Below are positions 1-51,021 of a DNA stretch of 64,000 nt, piece by piece (position 1 is the first letter of the stretch; each line of letters begins with the position of its first letter). The stretch is taken from assembly GCA_031272405.1 (NCBI GenBank), contig JAISTW010000047.1, forward strand, positions 1-64,000, given 5' to 3'. Under the pieces are notes generated by a model, which had not been told where the DNA came from, searched no databases, and worked only from the letters and a program-made list of their open reading frames with translations. This stretch comes from Desulfovibrio sp. (GTDB lineage Bacteria; Desulfobacterota; Desulfovibrionia; Desulfovibrionales; Desulfovibrionaceae). The position numbers and the translations under genes are program-made.

Positions 1-848
1 TTGGCGGTGTAGACGACTTCGTCGCCGGCGATGGCGACGTAGCCGAATTGCGTTTCATAGCCCTTGCCGCCGTTCATGGCGTTCAGTTGCGCCGTCGTCA
101 GCAGATTGCCGTCGCTGTCCAGGATGCCGGTCAGACGCGCGCCGCTCACGCCGTCATTGTGCAACACCGCGCCTTTGGTGACGGGCTCGCCGTCCCGCGA
201 GACGATGAAACGCTCTTCGGGCGGCGGCGGGGTTTGCGGCACAGGCGGGGTGACAGGCGGCGTGACCGGGGGAATATACGGCGGGACCGGAACATCCGGA
301 ATATGGGGCGCGGCCGGAACAGCGGAGACGTGCGTCGGGGGCGCTGTCGGCGCAACCGGGAAGGCCGCGCCGCTTCCGGAAGCCGTTGTGGCCACGGTGA
401 AAGGCACGGGATCCAGTGCCTGCACCTGATCCGGGTAACTCAGGGTGAAATTTTCATCCAAATCGCCCAGATGGCGCAGTCCGTTCATGAGGTCGGCGTC
501 GCCGTAGTTGGAATAGCGTCCTCCCTTGGCGCTCACTCCCACTCCGGCGGCCGGTTCTATGTCCGGAGCGAAGGCCTCGAAAAAGTCCACGCCGGCGATG
601 CTCTGGCCCTCGATCTCGAATTCGGGGAGATTGTCCTTGGTGTACTGCTCGTAAAAGCCCTCGATCTCCACAATACTGCCGTCGGAGAAGGTGAAGACAA
701 GGCTGTCGGAGTCCTCGGGCCGTTCTATGGTGGCCTGGTCAACGGGAAAGGCGAGAATGAATCTGGAATCGGGCTGCGCCTTGATGATTACCGGCTGTGT
801 GCCCATCCCCAGACTTTGCGGGGGAGGGGTTATGGTTACGTCTGTCAT
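1..848 (-). CDS. N-terminus of a large secreted (type I secretion/LapA-like) adhesin, runs off left edge
   Basis: Manual translation from ATG at 848 (RBS GGAG upstream): MTDVTITPPPQSLGMGTQPVIIKAQPDSRFILAFPVDQATIERPEDSDSLVFTFSDGSIVEIEGFYEQYTKDNLPEFEIEGQSIAGVDFFEAFAPDIEPAAGVGVSAKGG..., then a Pro-rich linker (PPYIPPVTPPVTPPVPQTPPPP). Open at base 1, so not in the ORF track. No Sec signal peptide. Confidence 0.7.
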   Translation of the reverse strand, partial: MTDVTITPPPQSLGMGTQPVIIKAQPDSRFILAFPVDQATIERPEDSDSLVFTFSDGSIVEIEGFYEQYTKDNLPEFEIEGQSIAGVDFFEAFAPDIEPAAGVGVSAKGGRYSNYGDADLMNGLRHLGDLDENFTLSYPDQVQALDPVPFTVATTASGSGAAFPVAPTAPPTHVSAVPAAPHIPDVPVPPYIPPVTPPVTPPVPQTPPPPEERFIVSRDGEPVTKGAVLHNDGVSGARLTGILDSDGNLLTTAQLNAMNGGKGYETQFGYVAIAGDEVVYTA

Positions 849-1075
849 GGTATTTTCTCCCAAGTTTTGCGTTGAGCGGCGTTCGGGTACGGCAGGGCAG
901 ATTCCGCGGCAAAACAAAACCGGCCGAACGAACGCCGACAAAAGTGTTGTTGAAAACGTTATTCACGAATCCGCGCCTTGTCAAGAAATTTTTGCGGGAA
1001 AGACAAAAAACTGATGCGCAAAGTCTCTTCGTTCAGGGGGAGCCTTCTTGACCGGGAAGCGGATGAAGACGCGGT

Positions 1076-42407: not shown

Positions 42408-45400
42408 TTAAAATTCCACCCGGAACGTGCCGAACAGGGCGTGGTTGGTGTTGTGCTCCGAGGCGATGAGGTTGTAGTTCAGGCCAAAGGAGACCGTGTC
42501 GTTGCCGAATTCCAGACCAACGCCGCCCATGTAGGAGACGTAATCCATAACCCGGTTTTCCATCTCGGCCTTGCCGTCCGTTCCGGTGAAGCGCACCTTG
42601 GTCTTGTTTTCCAGGTCGCCCGCGGCGGGTATGACGGCCAGATCCAGGCTCGGTTTGACGCGCCAGCCGTTGCCGGTGCTGATGGGTTTGGAGATGGCCA
42701 CGCCCACGGGGAATGTCCAGATGTTCTGGCTGACCCGGTCCGCCTTGAGCACAGTGCTGTCGCTCTTGACGCTGTGGGCGTCCGTGACCAGGTTGGTGTA
42801 GCGCGCGCCCGCGTGCGGGATGACGTCAACAACCGGGGTGACGATCTTGTATTCGGCGCGCAGGCCAGCGCTCACCGCGTGGGACTGGATGTCCGACTTC
42901 AGATCGCGCATGGCCATGCCCCTGGACAGTTCCTGTTTCACGTTGTTCCACACGCTGGTGTAGGTGAGGTCAGCGGTGAGGCCGAAGTTGCGGGCCGTCA
43001 TGCCGGCGTAGGCGCCCAGGCCCCAGAAGTTGAAGTGGTTGGTGGTTTCCGCCAGGTCGCCGCCGCCGGAGGCGTAGCCGCCGCCCATGTGGGCCGTGAC
43101 GCCGAAGCGGGCCGTGTTGGCCACAGTGTAGTCCGCGCCCACGGCAACACCGCCCAGGCCGCCGCTGTAGTCCTGCTTGAAGGTGTCCCCGGCCTTGATT
43201 TCATGTCCGTTGGCGCTCTGGTAGAGCGGAATGGCCCAGAGGGCCAGGCCGAGCTTGTGCGCGCCGGGGCTTTCCAGCGTGCCGTCAGCGCGCACGGCGC
43301 GCAGGCCGGAATGGGGCTGGGCCAGGGAGGTGCGTTGGGTTATCGCGCCGCCGGCCGCGTTGTTTGCGGCTAGGGTCATGGGCGCCACCGCGCCGAGCTG
43401 GGCAAAGCGGGCCGCGCTTTCTATGGTGATGGTCGCGGATTTGGGGTCGTTGCCCAGGCCGATATTGCGGGTCGCGTCCCAGGCAGTGGCGCGGGACAGG
43501 AAGCGCACCCCGGCCGCATTGGCATCCATATTTTCACGGCCGTTCACAAGGTACATATTGTCAACGATGTGGACGAGTTGATCGTCAAGGTCAGGCAGCC
43601 AGTTTTTTGCGGAATTGAATTTTGCTTCAAACCAGCCGTCGTGGCCAGCGGCGCGCGTCAGGACAATGCTTCTGGATTGCGTGCTCAGGTTGCTTCCGTT
43701 CCAACCGGTGCTGGCCGCGTAGGCGGCGGCATCCAGGTTGATGTTATCGCCCAGAACTATGTAGGTTTGGTTTATTTGGGCGTCAGCAATGCGCAATTTT
43801 GCGCCGTTGTACACTGTCGCCTGCGTGGCGGCAGTGGCGGACAGGGCTTCATTGGCTCCCAGGGCGGCGTCGCCTCTCACGACCAGCAGAGAATTGCCCG
43901 CGAAAGTGATTGTTGGCGAATTAGAGTTGAATGCGTCATTAAGTGCTGTATTAAGCGCATTGTAATTCATGCCACCGTCCACGATCAGGCTGTACCCTGT
44001 TCCTGCGCTATAGCCCAGGCGCATGGGATTGTATATGCCCAGGGCCGCCTGAACACCGTTCTGGGTCAGACCTTTGCCGTTTGTGACTTGGTTAACTTGA
44101 TCCGCCAGCCAAGTCAGATCAGGCGTACCAAGGGTCAACATGGAATTTTGTCCAACTCCCACGCCGCCATCAATAACGTTGGTGCCATTGTTGAAGTTCC
44201 CAATGCCGACTTTGTTCGGGCCGTCAGCTGCCCAAGACGGGTCAACAATGAGGTTGCCGCTATTGAGTGCCAAAGTGCGAACCTGCAAAGTGCTGGCTTT
44301 TGTGTCCTGTGTTGTGCCAACAGCAATTGTATGACCTGCTGAGCCTTGCATGTTAACAATAATAGCATGTGTACCTTGGTTTATGTTGACATCATCGTTG
44401 AATTTGGCATTCATGATAGCAACAGTAGAGTCTTCGAATAATGTATGACCATTAAAGGCAGAAGTTGCGCCAAATGCGGACGGAGTAGGATTTTGTGTGT
44501 AGAGAATTTCATGGAGATTGGCATCTTTTGGTATAATGGCAAGAGTACTGTTTTTAACTTTTGTCTCGCCAGAAACATCCATTTGATGCGCGATAATGAT
44601 ACTTTCGTTCTCGGCAGTAAAGCCAGTGGTCGAAATTTTGGTAGCTCCTACGGCGCTGTTCATCGCACTTAGCTGATCAGCTATAATAGAATTCGCGATA
44701 AGAGTGCTTTTATTGTCCAAAGTAATATTATGCGAGTTCAGATTCTTACCATAAGTCTCCAAATCAGTGAAGACTTGTTGAAGATCAGAATAGACTTTCT
44801 CAGCATTAGCTGGATTAACCACAGTGCTATTGCTGCTCAATGTTTTTACATCATTGACAATTTTCTCAGAGGCAGCAGGGTCAGGATTAAACAAGACCAA
44901 GCTGCTGCCATTGACAACCTCAACATTTTGCAGCTTTTCTGTTGCGCCTATATCGCCAGCAAATAATATGCTGCCGTCTGTGACTTTGATAATTCCTTTG
45001 TCGGCAATTTCTGTAGTAATGTCGCCTGTCGTGACTTTGCTGGGGCTGACCTGACCGTTTGCCGCAGTAAAGCCGCTGACATTGAGTTGGGAATCACCTC
45101 CATCGTTCCGTAAGGTTACATCTGCAACGCGGCTGCCAAGCTCAACTGCCGGGTCAGACTGTAGCGTTACCTGGCCCGCTCCTATGCTCAGGTTGCCGGC
45201 CTCACCTACATGTGTAGTAGGATCAACTTCTTTAGCCACCAGAAGAGAGTAGCCTTCATTGTCATGGGCTAGAATTTCTGCATCATTCTTATTCGGGTTG
45301 TAGCTGCCCGTGAGCGTAAGGTTATTGTTGCCGTTTTTGAGCGTGGTAGCGCCGACAGTCAGTTCAACTCCAGCCGCTTTCTCAAGCCCTACGTTGACGC

Positions 45401-48400
45401 TGGCAGCAGGCTCGGGCACATCTTTAACGATAATATCACCGGTGTTCTCCCCGGAATCATAGTTTTTAAAATTCCCAAGGTTGTTGTCAGCAATTGTTTG
45501 GTTTACAGTGTCGTAGTCGATACGACGATCAACAGCTCCTGCCACAAGATTCACGTCCACTCTCGCTTGATTTAAATCAATCATGTTGGCGGAGTCACTC
45601 GCACCAAGCAGATTTTCTTTCAGGTCACCAAGTTGAGTTGTGGTAAGAGGATCGGCACCCAAATCCTTAAGCGAGATTGTACCGCCATTGTTGGATGCGG
45701 TGACTATCTGGCCGTCATAACCGTTACCATCCAGCACATCAACTAATGTTTTGCCAGAGTTATCCTGCATTGAGGCGGCGGTAGTAACCAGCTCCGCCTT
45801 GTCGTCCAGCACGATGTTGCCGCCGGCGCTGGAAGACACCAAAGCGCCGTTGCTGACGTCCAGCGTTGCTCCGTTGGCGATGGTGAGAGCGTCAGAACCT
45901 GAAGTGGAGCTTGCGATGTTGATGGTGGAGCCGGAACCCTCTTTCAGGCTCCAGTCCCCGCCGTTGACGTTCATTTTGCCCGTATTCTCAACGGATACGT
46001 TGCCGTTGATCACGCCCGCGTCATTCTTGCCGGTTTGGCCAAGTTCCAGGCTGCCGATGTCGCTGGCATTGTCGCTGATGACCAGCGTTGGGCCAGTATT
46101 GCGATTTTTGTCCAGCACATTGAGGCCGGACTGCGCGGACAGTGTGCCGGAAGCGACCGTAAGCTTCAGGGTTGCGGGGTCGGTGCCGTCAGCGTCGCTT
46201 TGCCGCGCGTTCAGGATATCGGCGTATATCGCGCCCTGCCCGATGTCCAAAGTGGAGTCGCCGCTGGGGGCAAGTTTGAGGGTAATTTCGCTGGGCTCGC
46301 CCGACACTTCATCCTTGCTTGTGACAGAACCGCCCTCTCCGAGATATATGCCTTCCGTCGTCGGATCGGTTGCGTCGGCTTTATGAAGAGCCCGCACATC
46401 AAGCCAGGCGCCGCCGTCATCGCCCGCCGCCTCTTTCGCGGCGGAGTCGTATGTCACAACAAGCGTCCCGCCATCATTCCCCACCCGGACCGCAACGTCG
46501 CCTGGTGTGCTGGAGACATCGTTCAACTGTTTTTCGCTGACCGTAAGCGTTGCGGGGGTTGCGGTGCCGGGCGCGCTGTTGACCGTGAAAAGCGTGGCTG
46601 AGGCGTGATCAACATCCAGAGTTGTCTCTGAAATGTCCAGATCCGATTGCACATCAATTTTCCCAGAGCCTGAAAGCGACAGTGAGGAGTTGGAGTCGAG
46701 TGTAACCGGCCCACCTTTGATGGTCAGAGTGCCATTATTGTTGTTGGCAACAGCGCCGGACAGGGTTTGGCTGCCGGTTTGGGCGAAGGTCAGATAGGAG
46801 TTGTTGTTTATGTCTCCTGCATAGTTGTTGCCGGTTACGGAATTATTGTCGGAATCCATTGTGCCTGTGATGGTCAGTGTCCCTACTCCGTCCTTTGTCA
46901 GGCTTCCGGAACCGGATATGCCGCCGGACAGGGTCTGGTTACTGATCTGGTTGAAGGTCAAAGCGCCGTCGTTGACGATGCCGCCTGCATAGTCGCCGTC
47001 GTGCGTGGTAATCGTCGTCCCGTTATAAGTATCGCCCAGGGTGCCGGTGACATTGAGCGTTGCGCCCTCACCGACATTCGTGCCGCCCGTGTATGTGTTG
47101 TTGCCGGCCAGGGTCAGCGTGTTCGTTCCGTTTTGGGTCAGCGTGCCGGAACCGGAGACAACCCCGGACAGGATCTGGTTCTCGGTCTGATTATTATTTT
47201 TGAAGATCAGCGCGCCGTCGTTGGCTATCGCCCCGTGGTAGTCATATCCAGCGGTGTCAGCATTGGAATCCAGCGTGCCGCCGACGCTGACCGTGCCTGC
47301 GTTGATGGTTGTATTGCCGCCGTAGGTATTGAGGCCGTTCAGATGAAGCGTGCCCGCGCCGTTTTTGACGACAAAGCCATTCGCTCCGGCTATGCCGTCC
47401 GCATCTGTAATTGTCCTGAGAGGAGCGGCGTCGAATGTCGCTGTGGCGCCCTCGGCCAACATGATGGAGTTTCGAGTTTCAACACCGTTGTTTACGACTT
47501 TGTTGCCGCTGAAGGTGACATTATTGACTACCGCTCTGACTTCGATATCTTTGTTCGTCCAGATGGCGCCGCCCTGGGCCGTACCGTTGGTACTCACGGC
47601 GCTGTTGCCGGTGAAAGTCGAGTCCTTGACGGTAATTTTCTCATTGACGGGAGTTTCCAGATTCATCCAGATCGCTCCGCCCTGGGCGTAGCTGGCGGTG
47701 CCGGACGCCTTGTTTTCAGCCGTGTTGCCGGTAAACTCCGTGTTGTCAATAAGAGCGGATTCAACTTTTCCATTGCTTGTCGCCAGAATGGCCATTGCGC
47801 CGCCCGCGGCTGTGCTGGCTCCCACGCCGCCGACAACGACTTGCGCCGTGTTGCCGGTAAAGGAGGAATCGGACACGGTCAGGGTGAGAGCGTTGGCAGG
47901 GTCGCTCGGCGTTGGGCCGGTGTTGTCTTCCACAATGTAGAGGCCGCCGCCCCGCACATTGATATTGTCGGCGCTGTCTGGTGTGCCGGGGAAAACGCGC
48001 TGGGCCGTGTTGTTCAAAAACTCGGTGTAGGTTATGCTGACCTTTGTGTTCTGATTCTCGGTGTCGCCGATGTACAGGGCGCCGCCGCCGGCATAGCCGC
48101 CGCCGTCGGATGTGGCCGTGTTGCTGTCGAATGTGACTTTTTCTGTTGCTGTTCCGGTGATTTCCACAGTCGGGAAGGCGCTGACGTGCGCGCCGCCGCC
48201 GAGGGCAGAGAAGGCGTTTGAATCCGAGTTGTTGACTGCGTCGTAGCCCTTCTGCGTCGCCTGATTCTCCGTGAAGTTCGCGCCACCGGTAATGTAGAAG
48301 GAACTGCCGCCGCCGGTCCCGGAGACGTACAGACCGCCGCCCACACCGAGGGAAGCTGATGACCCGCCGTCAACGCTTACATTATTGGTGTGTTGTAATG

Positions 48401-48995
48401 TAAAGTTGCTGAGTTCGAGTTTGCCGAGAACAGCCTGAACAGCAGCAACGCCATAGCTGCCCGCTGGATTCAGGTGGGAGAAAGTGCTGGCATTGCCGTC
48501 AGCCGCCCGGCCGTCCAGCACAAGATTGGAAAGCGTAACATCTTTGGCGTTGGCGATGCTCAACAGACGGTTGGGTTTTGCGGACGTGGCTATCTCGTAT
48601 TGTATCTTCAGGGAAGCTCCGTTTGAAAGTACGCCGTCAAGGCTCAGGTCGTGCCCGCCGCCATTCCAATATAAACTACCATTACTTGAAGTCGGCGCAT
48701 ATTGAACAGTCCCGCTGCCCGTAAATGTGATGGCCTTGTCGCCGTTGGCGGGATTAACGTCAGGCACGGGAGTGTTGTTCATAATCTGCTGGCGCAGCGC
48801 AGTCCGTGTGTCTGTATTTACCTCGACAGCCCGCGCAAGTCCGGATCCGCCCAGAATCAGCGCGGCCGCCAGCAGGACGACGGCCGCCCATTTCCGGCGG
48901 CGCAGCCGCCGCGCGGTTCCGCCCGCATCCTGAAACACGGTTGAAGCATTCTGTGAACTCTCCGACGGCAACGCTCTCACAATATCTGTCAACAT
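42408..48995 (-). CDS. autotransporter (type Va secretion) with Pmp-like and autotransporter-associated beta-strand repeats
   Basis: 2195 aa; extended N-region and signal peptide; GGA(I/L)/FxGNxA repeats; YTGGTNVGEGATLNV-type PATR repeats; C-terminal beta-barrel ending ...ALFGTFRVEF. Confidence 0.9.
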   Translation of the reverse strand: MLTDIVRALPSESSQNASTVFQDAGGTARRLRRRKWAAVVLLAAALILGGSGLARAVEVNTDTRTALRQQIMNNTPVPDVNPANGDKAITFTGSGTVQYAPTSSNGSLYWNGGGHDLSLDGVLSNGASLKIQYEIATSAKPNRLLSIANAKDVTLSNLVLDGRAADGNASTFSHLNPAGSYGVAAVQAVLGKLELSNFTLQHTNNVSVDGGSSASLGVGGGLYVSGTGGGSSFYITGGANFTENQATQKGYDAVNNSDSNAFSALGGGAHVSAFPTVEITGTATEKVTFDSNTATSDGGGYAGGGALYIGDTENQNTKVSITYTEFLNNTAQRVFPGTPDSADNINVRGGGLYIVEDNTGPTPSDPANALTLTVSDSSFTGNTAQVVVGGVGASTAAGGAMAILATSNGKVESALIDNTEFTGNTAENKASGTASYAQGGAIWMNLETPVNEKITVKDSTFTGNSAVSTNGTAQGGAIWTNKDIEVRAVVNNVTFSGNKVVNNGVETRNSIMLAEGATATFDAAPLRTITDADGIAGANGFVVKNGAGTLHLNGLNTYGGNTTINAGTVSVGGTLDSNADTAGYDYHGAIANDGALIFKNNNQTENQILSGVVSGSGTLTQNGTNTLTLAGNNTYTGGTNVGEGATLNVTGTLGDTYNGTTITTHDGDYAGGIVNDGALTFNQISNQTLSGGISGSGSLTKDGVGTLTITGTMDSDNNSVTGNNYAGDINNNSYLTFAQTGSQTLSGAVANNNNGTLTIKGGPVTLDSNSSLSLSGSGKIDVQSDLDISETTLDVDHASATLFTVNSAPGTATPATLTVSEKQLNDVSSTPGDVAVRVGNDGGTLVVTYDSAAKEAAGDDGGAWLDVRALHKADATDPTTEGIYLGEGGSVTSKDEVSGEPSEITLKLAPSGDSTLDIGQGAIYADILNARQSDADGTDPATLKLTVASGTLSAQSGLNVLDKNRNTGPTLVISDNASDIGSLELGQTGKNDAGVINGNVSVENTGKMNVNGGDWSLKEGSGSTINIASSTSGSDALTIANGATLDVSNGALVSSSAGGNIVLDDKAELVTTAASMQDNSGKTLVDVLDGNGYDGQIVTASNNGGTISLKDLGADPLTTTQLGDLKENLLGASDSANMIDLNQARVDVNLVAGAVDRRIDYDTVNQTIADNNLGNFKNYDSGENTGDIIVKDVPEPAASVNVGLEKAAGVELTVGATTLKNGNNNLTLTGSYNPNKNDAEILAHDNEGYSLLVAKEVDPTTHVGEAGNLSIGAGQVTLQSDPAVELGSRVADVTLRNDGGDSQLNVSGFTAANGQVSPSKVTTGDITTEIADKGIIKVTDGSILFAGDIGATEKLQNVEVVNGSSLVLFNPDPAASEKIVNDVKTLSSNSTVVNPANAEKVYSDLQQVFTDLETYGKNLNSHNITLDNKSTLIANSIIADQLSAMNSAVGATKISTTGFTAENESIIIAHQMDVSGETKVKNSTLAIIPKDANLHEILYTQNPTPSAFGATSAFNGHTLFEDSTVAIMNAKFNDDVNINQGTHAIIVNMQGSAGHTIAVGTTQDTKASTLQVRTLALNSGNLIVDPSWAADGPNKVGIGNFNNGTNVIDGGVGVGQNSMLTLGTPDLTWLADQVNQVTNGKGLTQNGVQAALGIYNPMRLGYSAGTGYSLIVDGGMNYNALNTALNDAFNSNSPTITFAGNSLLVVRGDAALGANEALSATAATQATVYNGAKLRIADAQINQTYIVLGDNINLDAAAYAASTGWNGSNLSTQSRSIVLTRAAGHDGWFEAKFNSAKNWLPDLDDQLVHIVDNMYLVNGRENMDANAAGVRFLSRATAWDATRNIGLGNDPKSATITIESAARFAQLGAVAPMTLAANNAAGGAITQRTSLAQPHSGLRAVRADGTLESPGAHKLGLALWAIPLYQSANGHEIKAGDTFKQDYSGGLGGVAVGADYTVANTARFGVTAHMGGGYASGGGDLAETTNHFNFWGLGAYAGMTARNFGLTADLTYTSVWNNVKQELSRGMAMRDLKSDIQSHAVSAGLRAEYKIVTPVVDVIPHAGARYTNLVTDAHSVKSDSTVLKADRVSQNIWTFPVGVAISKPISTGNGWRVKPSLDLAVIPAAGDLENKTKVRFTGTDGKAEMENRVMDYVSYMGGVGLEFGNDTVSFGLNYNLIASEHNTNHALFGTFRVEF
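46720..47420 (-). repeat. autotransporter-associated beta-strand (PATR-like) repeats within the passenger
   Basis: GAGTLHLNGLNTYGGNTTINAGTVSVGGTLDS / TNTLTLAGNNTYTGGTNVGEGATLNVTGTLGD / VGTLTITGTMDS; approximate boundaries. Confidence 0.7.
47496..48344 (-). repeat. Pmp-like GGA(I/L)...FxxN repeats within the passenger
   Basis: FTENQA, FDSNTA, FLNNTA, FTGNTA, FTGNTA, FTGNSA, FSGNKV interspersed with GGGLY, GGALY, GGGLY, GGAMA, GGAIW, GGAIW. Confidence 0.75.
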
Positions 48996-50322: not shown

Positions 50323-51021
50323 TTATTGATACTGCCAGACGCCGTTTTCGTTAAAGGCGAATTCCACCTTGTAGTAACGGCTCAGGGCTTCGTTCTGCTT
50401 CAGGACAAGTCCCGGGGGGCGGGCGTTGTTATCTATGATGTAGATGTGCCCGTCAATGCGCACTGCCAGCAACATGTGCCCGACGCTGCCGTTTTCCGTA
50501 ACGATGACCAGGCGCATGTTTTCTGCGGCGAAGCCGTGCTCGCGCAGGACAAAATACTTGGCGATGGCGAAATCCTCGCAATCGCCCCGGGCGAGCCGCA
50601 AGCACGTGGCCGGTGCGGCCCATTTTTCCGGCACGCCGTACACTTCCTCGTCCGACGCGCCCTTGACCTGAAAGTTGATGAAACCGCTGATGGCGGAAAG
50701 TTGTTCCAGGGGTTTCATGCGCGGCAAGGCTGCTTCCAGATTGCGCCTGTTCTCCTGGGCGGTTTCCGGCAGGCGGCGCAGGGAGTCTTTTTCCTCGGCG
50801 GAATCACGGGCGTATTCGCTCAGAACTTCTTCCCACATTATAGCGTGGTGTCGCCAGGCCGGCGAGGCAAGGGCGGATGCTTCCAAGCGCGTTTCGCCGA
50901 GCAGCGTTTTCCATCCGTCCGTCTCGGCGGACCGCGCCGCCAGAGCATCCGTTGGCGTTGTCGTCACGCGCAACAACAGCCACAAAAACACAAGAAGCCG
51001 TCTCCACAGCGTCATGGTCAT
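50323..51021 (-). CDS. bacterial transglutaminase-like cysteine protease (BTLCP), LapG-like
   Basis: N-terminal signal region; LARGDCEDFAIAKYFVLREHG (Cys), GHMLLAVRIDG (His), YIIDNNARP (Asp). Confidence 0.85.
   Translation of the reverse strand: MTMTLWRRLLVFLWLLLRVTTTPTDALAARSAETDGWKTLLGETRLEASALASPAWRHHAIMWEEVLSEYARDSAEEKDSLRRLPETAQENRRNLEAALPRMKPLEQLSAISGFINFQVKGASDEEVYGVPEKWAAPATCLRLARGDCEDFAIAKYFVLREHGFAAENMRLVIVTENGSVGHMLLAVRIDGHIYIIDNNARPPGLVLKQNEALSRYYKVEFAFNENGVWQYQ

Follow-up and report, generated by a model that had tools for sequence, protein, structure and literature searches.

The timing of bacterial attachment and detachment is controlled by LapA-type adhesins. In Desulfovibrio vulgaris, the protease DvhG cleaves the adhesins DvhA and DVU1545 at a [T/A/P]AAG motif, where the scissile bond is that between the two alanines, and these adhesins are laid out as a beta domain, a helix and a disordered stretch that contains the site (PMC13090378). 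The DNA analyzed here (the window, 64,000 nucleotides) corresponds to bases 1-64000 of contig C26 of a Desulfovibrio genome (G000), which is assembled in 80 contigs and is 80.65% complete. At its left edge lies a further member of this known kind of adhesin gene, cut off by the assembly. The likeness to DvhA and DVU1545 was drawn from their published description.

The left-edge gene and its parts

The adhesin gene occupies 1..848 on the minus strand (the window copy), and its body and C-terminus are not readable because the contig stops at base 1. The features of the window are as follows.

1..848, minus strand: 5′ part of the retention-module adhesin gene, an open frame of 282 codons running off the contig end
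820..829, minus strand: interrupted C tract CCCCTCCCCC, codons 7-10, in frame; pure C at this place in the paralogs on contigs C17, C8 and C27
597..848, minus strand: beta-rich retention domain, residues 1-84 (AlphaFold2 model and alignment A2)
570..593, minus strand: predicted targeting helix GVDFFEAF, residues 86-93 (AlphaFold2 model, alignment A2)
543..554, minus strand: PAAG, predicted DvhG/LapG site, residues 99-102 (PAAG in 67/79 modules)
456..524, minus strand: post-site motif GGRYsNYGDaDLMnGLrHLgDLD, residues 109-131 (alignment A2)
219..371, minus strand: Pro-rich linker, about residues 160-210 (from the sequence)
857..861, minus strand: Shine-Dalgarno-like GGGAG (from the sequence)
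956..984, minus strand: putative sigma-70-like promoter, TTGACA (979-984), 17 nt, TAACGT (956-961) (from the sequence)
50323..51021, minus strand: second LapG-type Peptidase_C93 protease (PF06035, E 7.8e-19; GDCEDF, GHM, IIDNN)

The initial annotation had described a minus-strand frame starting at ATG 848 that was missed by the ORF track, and had noted the lack of a Sec signal, a folded-looking N-terminus, PAAG at residues 99-102 and a Pro-rich linker behind it; all of these observations held. The frame is open to base 3, and it was listed once open-ended frames were allowed, its omission being due only to the fact that it runs off the source. The protein starts MTDVTITPPPQSLGMG and has no hydrophobic N-terminal stretch or leader. 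In the AlphaFold2 model, whose overall confidence is moderate (mean pLDDT 71, with 82-86 over most of residues 1-84), a beta domain extends to residue 84 and is followed by a helix at 86-93 and by disorder from residue 102. F89 and F90 of the helix are invariant in the module alignment (A2). Residues 95-102 read PDIEPAAG, and at the site (FFEAFAPDIEPAAG) the [T/A/P]AAG motif stands behind the helix and an Asp-containing turn; by analogy with DvhG, the predicted cut would fall between the two alanines, residues 100/101. Behind the site, the pattern GGRY..YGD..L..G..HL..LD shows a conservation nearly equal to that of the site itself, with L120, G123 and D131 invariant and L127 and L130 nearly so. 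The Pro-rich linker presumably spans the outer-membrane conduit, as in LapA-type adhesins. Window 818-1044 is 82% identical to positions 1-236 of contig C27. The upstream region also matched contig C61, but the match was discarded: only a promoter-like stretch, and no adhesin, was seen there.

The PAAG tetrapeptide alone is weak evidence, because a [T/A/P]AAG motif arises somewhere in 6.6% of shuffles of the 282-aa window protein, and on this ground the gene might encode an unrelated cytoplasmic protein in which the tetrapeptide occurs by chance. However, PAAG is kept at the homologous position, after the invariant FF helix, in 67 of the 79 distinct modules of the genus used for the site statistics, indicating that it is not fortuitous, and the paralogs are RTX proteins; we regard the probability of a chance tetrapeptide as negligible. 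The 12 remaining modules carry PAEG (three), PGAV (two), PATG, PEAV, PGAG, PAAA, PAVG, PAMG or QDAL at this position, and the Ala-Ala pair is altered in all of them except PAAA.

The only curated family that recognized the module was the BapA prefix-like domain (NF033677, PF22783). Among 21 module members tested, 14 matched the NCBIfam model NF033677 (best E 3.5e-8) and 12 matched BapA_N (PF22783), whereas the window member, at E 0.12 for NF033677, fell below the cut-off. With the window protein alone, searches of Pfam and NCBIfam returned nothing, the PDB searched by sequence returned nothing credible, and Foldseek with the window model against the PDB gave a best E of 0.09 and no match at E <= 0.001. 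The order of elements in the model does agree with that published for the D. vulgaris adhesins.

Copies of the module in the genome and the genus

Nine module matches, including the window copy, were found in the genome, together with the beginning of one more gene at the left edge of contig C27, where the sequence ends within its first codons. Besides the window copy, those on contigs C17, C80 and C27 break at contig ends. A continuation of the window copy was sought by end overlap, but matches of other contigs to window 1-313 were too poor to reveal one. Five copies lie in long open frames of 1007-3141 aa, with RTX repeats in four of the five; these copies and one remnant are listed below.

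Contig C12: 3141 aa; VCBS x13, cadherin-like, RTX
Contig C8: about 1970 aa; RTX
Contig C62: 1341 aa; no Pfam or NCBIfam match, no RTX/VCBS
Contig C47: 1094 aa; RTX
Contig C5: 1007 aa; VWA, RTX
Contig C52, L030 9784-10164: remnant; an internal deletion has fused 64 module residues to the 3′ end of an adhesin gene, out of frame thereafter

The modules of the window copy and the C17 copy are identical in protein sequence over residues 8-104 and diverge shortly after the site. Over 98 codons they differ at 16 silent and 0 replacement codons, indicating that the protein is under constraint. Past the site, the C17 tail resembles that of C47. These features fit an anchor that is strongly constrained as a protein and may recombine with various bodies. 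The codon differences also bear on the possibility that the window copy is a decayed or truncated gene from which no adhesin is made. Such a remnant exists in the same genome, on contig C52, and the continuation of the window copy lies beyond the contig end; but the window frame is open through the module, site, post-site motif and linker, and the absence of replacement changes relative to C17 points to a constrained protein. We therefore consider decay quite improbable.

The paralog on contig C62 raises a different question, namely whether the window module is a retention-type N-terminus that carries a non-RTX passenger and has a function distinct from adhesion. Of all linkers, that of C62, a protein without RTX or VCBS matches, most resembles the window linker. 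However, RTX repeats are the rule among the long paralogs, and none of the other loci fetched matches window residues 211-282, so that the likeness to C62 does not extend beyond the linker; the C62 protein itself ends in a Gly-rich EILGGGG, which by eye is somewhat like the ends of other copies. A non-RTX passenger appears unlikely on this evidence, and we infer that the body of the window copy beyond the contig end is an RTX-type adhesin.

A profile search of 79 Desulfovibrio genomes found the module in 47. Ten matches were obtained in G017, ten in G076 and eight in G078, a genome in a single contig; the weakest of these matches may be divergent or partial. Several genomes of the genus hold 7-10 module copies. 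A related copy was also found in Desulfovibrio sp. MAG Pc512_bin104 by a contig scan with the single window protein. No module was found in 16 genomes of other genera of the order by a first-pass protein search, from which divergence could hide it. In G017, three adhesin genes lie close together on contig C17 (L035), one with PAAG and the others with PGAG and PEAV; in G078, three lie close together at 1906-1917 kb of contig C1, one with PAAG and two with PGAV. Judging from these substitutions for PAAG, the PGAG, PEAV and PGAV members may resist cleavage.

Protease, receptor and secretion genes

Contig C11 encodes a DvhG-like Peptidase_C93 protease with a C-H-D triad (motifs GDCED, GHA and VLDN), adjoined by a 691-aa DvhD-like receptor with PAS and HD-GYP (HD_5) domains and by a TolC-like outer-membrane efflux protein; judged by gene content, this grouping is the Dvh arrangement. 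The second protease, at 50323-51021 of the window, also has an intact C-H-D triad and lies away from any adhesin operon; its closest relative among the sequences fetched is in G001 (57% identity). It adjoins a nucleoside-recognition (Gate) membrane protein, and L064 was the one relative in which a close ortholog was seen. A third Peptidase_C93 protein, on contig C69 (L032 10452-11234), has Ser in place of the catalytic Cys, lacks the catalytic His and is likely a dead protease. Only one protease gene is present in most of the relatives tested. Also in the window, at 42408-48995 on the minus strand, is a 2195-aa protein with repeats and, by eye, an autotransporter-like C-terminus.

Type I secretion genes, which the initial annotation had suggested looking for next to the adhesin gene, were not present on the readable side of the window copy, and no T1SS ABC or HlyD protein scored over the cut-off in this 80%-complete genome assembly. 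An LssB-type ABC protein was over the cut-off in all four near-complete relatives tested. An assembly gap is the most economical reading of the absence, although it may represent a true loss. The end of an ABC gene on contig C24 was considered as the missing T1SS component and rejected because a metallo-hydrolase-like gene and then sugar-nucleotide genes follow; by eye, it looks like another exporter.

Module homology, the conserved site, the RTX bodies of the paralogs and the presence of DvhG-, DvhD- and TolC-like genes form the basis on which we assign the window copy to the LapA-like Dvh system of Desulfovibrio and read it as the periplasmic N-terminus of an adhesin exported by type I secretion, with a probability of about 0.88. 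Retention, cleavage and c-di-GMP control of this copy are inferred. In the proposed mechanism, the module (residues 1 to about 84) would stay in the periplasm and plug the TolC-like exit, so that the long C-terminal body would be exposed outside the cell. Once the c-di-GMP level drops, DvhG would dock on helix 86-93 and cut between A100 and A101 of PAAG, thereby releasing the adhesin.

Poly-C tracts and comparison with known systems

Codons 7-10 of the window copy do not form a pure homopolymer (CCCCTCCCCC), whereas three paralogs in the same genome have a pure tract in the 5′ coding region. The C80 copy is the same as the window copy here (CCCCTCCCCC), and the C52 copy has CCCCCCTCCC. The tract comprises 8 C in the copy on contig C17 (L029 432-439) and 9 C in that on contig C8 (L024 16462-16470); at these lengths neither start codon shares the frame of its open module, as it would at 7 or 10 C. 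The contig C27 copy has 10 C (L039 3-12) and would be in frame, but its sequence ends just behind the tract. In the relative G076, tracts of 11 C (contig C3, L180 5687-5697), 12 C (contig C61, L185 278-289) and 15 C (contig C40, L179 4778-4792) sit some 45-50 nt from the start of the gene; the copies with 11 and 15 C are out of frame, and that with 12 C has a stop in the module. Pure poly-C tracts of 8-15 C thus occur in six copies in the two genomes, most of them out of frame.

By hand count, the genome of the window has about 31 tracts of at least 8 C. That three such tracts should fall in the opening 60 nt of ten genes has a Poisson p near 1e-7, a value that comes from the data on which the hypothesis was formed and that overstates the case because the copies share ancestry and are not independent. 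G076 has about 27 tracts of at least 10 C, three of them in adhesin genes. The other poly-C tracts of both genomes are mostly intergenic or inside other frames, with a few other candidates in 5′ coding regions. A tract of 10 G around L225 1502 (G076 contig C92), in the part of another gene that encodes a signal-peptide-like start, is a further candidate switch.

The tracts suggest phase variation of the adhesin copies, as a lead rather than a result. Their lengths may instead stem from homopolymer errors in sequencing or assembly. The C17 module shows no replacement changes, which argues against a long-dead gene. We found no report of phase variation in LapA or Dvh adhesins in the library of open-access papers searched. 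We tentatively propose, at slightly less than even odds, that in this Desulfovibrio lineage some ten Dvh adhesins share a DvhG-cleavable anchor and that slipped-strand changes in poly-C switch individual members on or off. Phase variation would then select the members displayed, c-di-GMP would time the shedding of all, and members lacking Ala-Ala, which in relatives have PGAV, PEAV, PAEG or other variants, would stay attached permanently. If the tracts do switch, a sulfate reducer would have a single adhesin set under two layers of control, stochastic choice and release triggered by c-di-GMP. The size of this set and the poly-C tracts are what give the locus its interest beyond the first reading.

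Poly-C and poly-G tracts underlie phase-variable surface genes in Campylobacter and Neisseria. The tract genes of those bacteria share with the present copies a pure homopolymer in the first codons and a frame set by tract length, whereas the tract lengths given here are those of assembled sequence. LapA of P. fluorescens (LapD/LapG) has the same architecture and cleavage consensus, but LapD is a GGDEF-EAL receptor, and the receptor beside the protease here combines PAS and HD-GYP. The initial designation as a LapA-like N-terminus is upheld as to the retention-module kind, given the paralog bodies, site and protease, while the nearest system is Dvh and not Pseudomonas Lap. Common to the present genes and to DvhA (DVU1012), DVU1545, DvhG and DvhD are a beta retention domain, a short helix with hydrophobic residues, the [T/A/P]AAG motif, a periplasmic BTLCP protease and an HD-GYP rather than GGDEF-EAL receptor (PMC13090378, PMC5646257). 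D. vulgaris DvhG has a transmembrane helix, whereas the DvhG-type protease here has, by eye, a signal-peptide-like N-terminus, and the genome also encodes another LapG-like protease as well as a third one that is probably dead. D. vulgaris has two such adhesins, compared with about ten copies here; in the published systems compared, one or two adhesins are served by a protease, whereas several Desulfovibrio genomes hold 7-10 module copies and a single protease gene is usual among the relatives tested.
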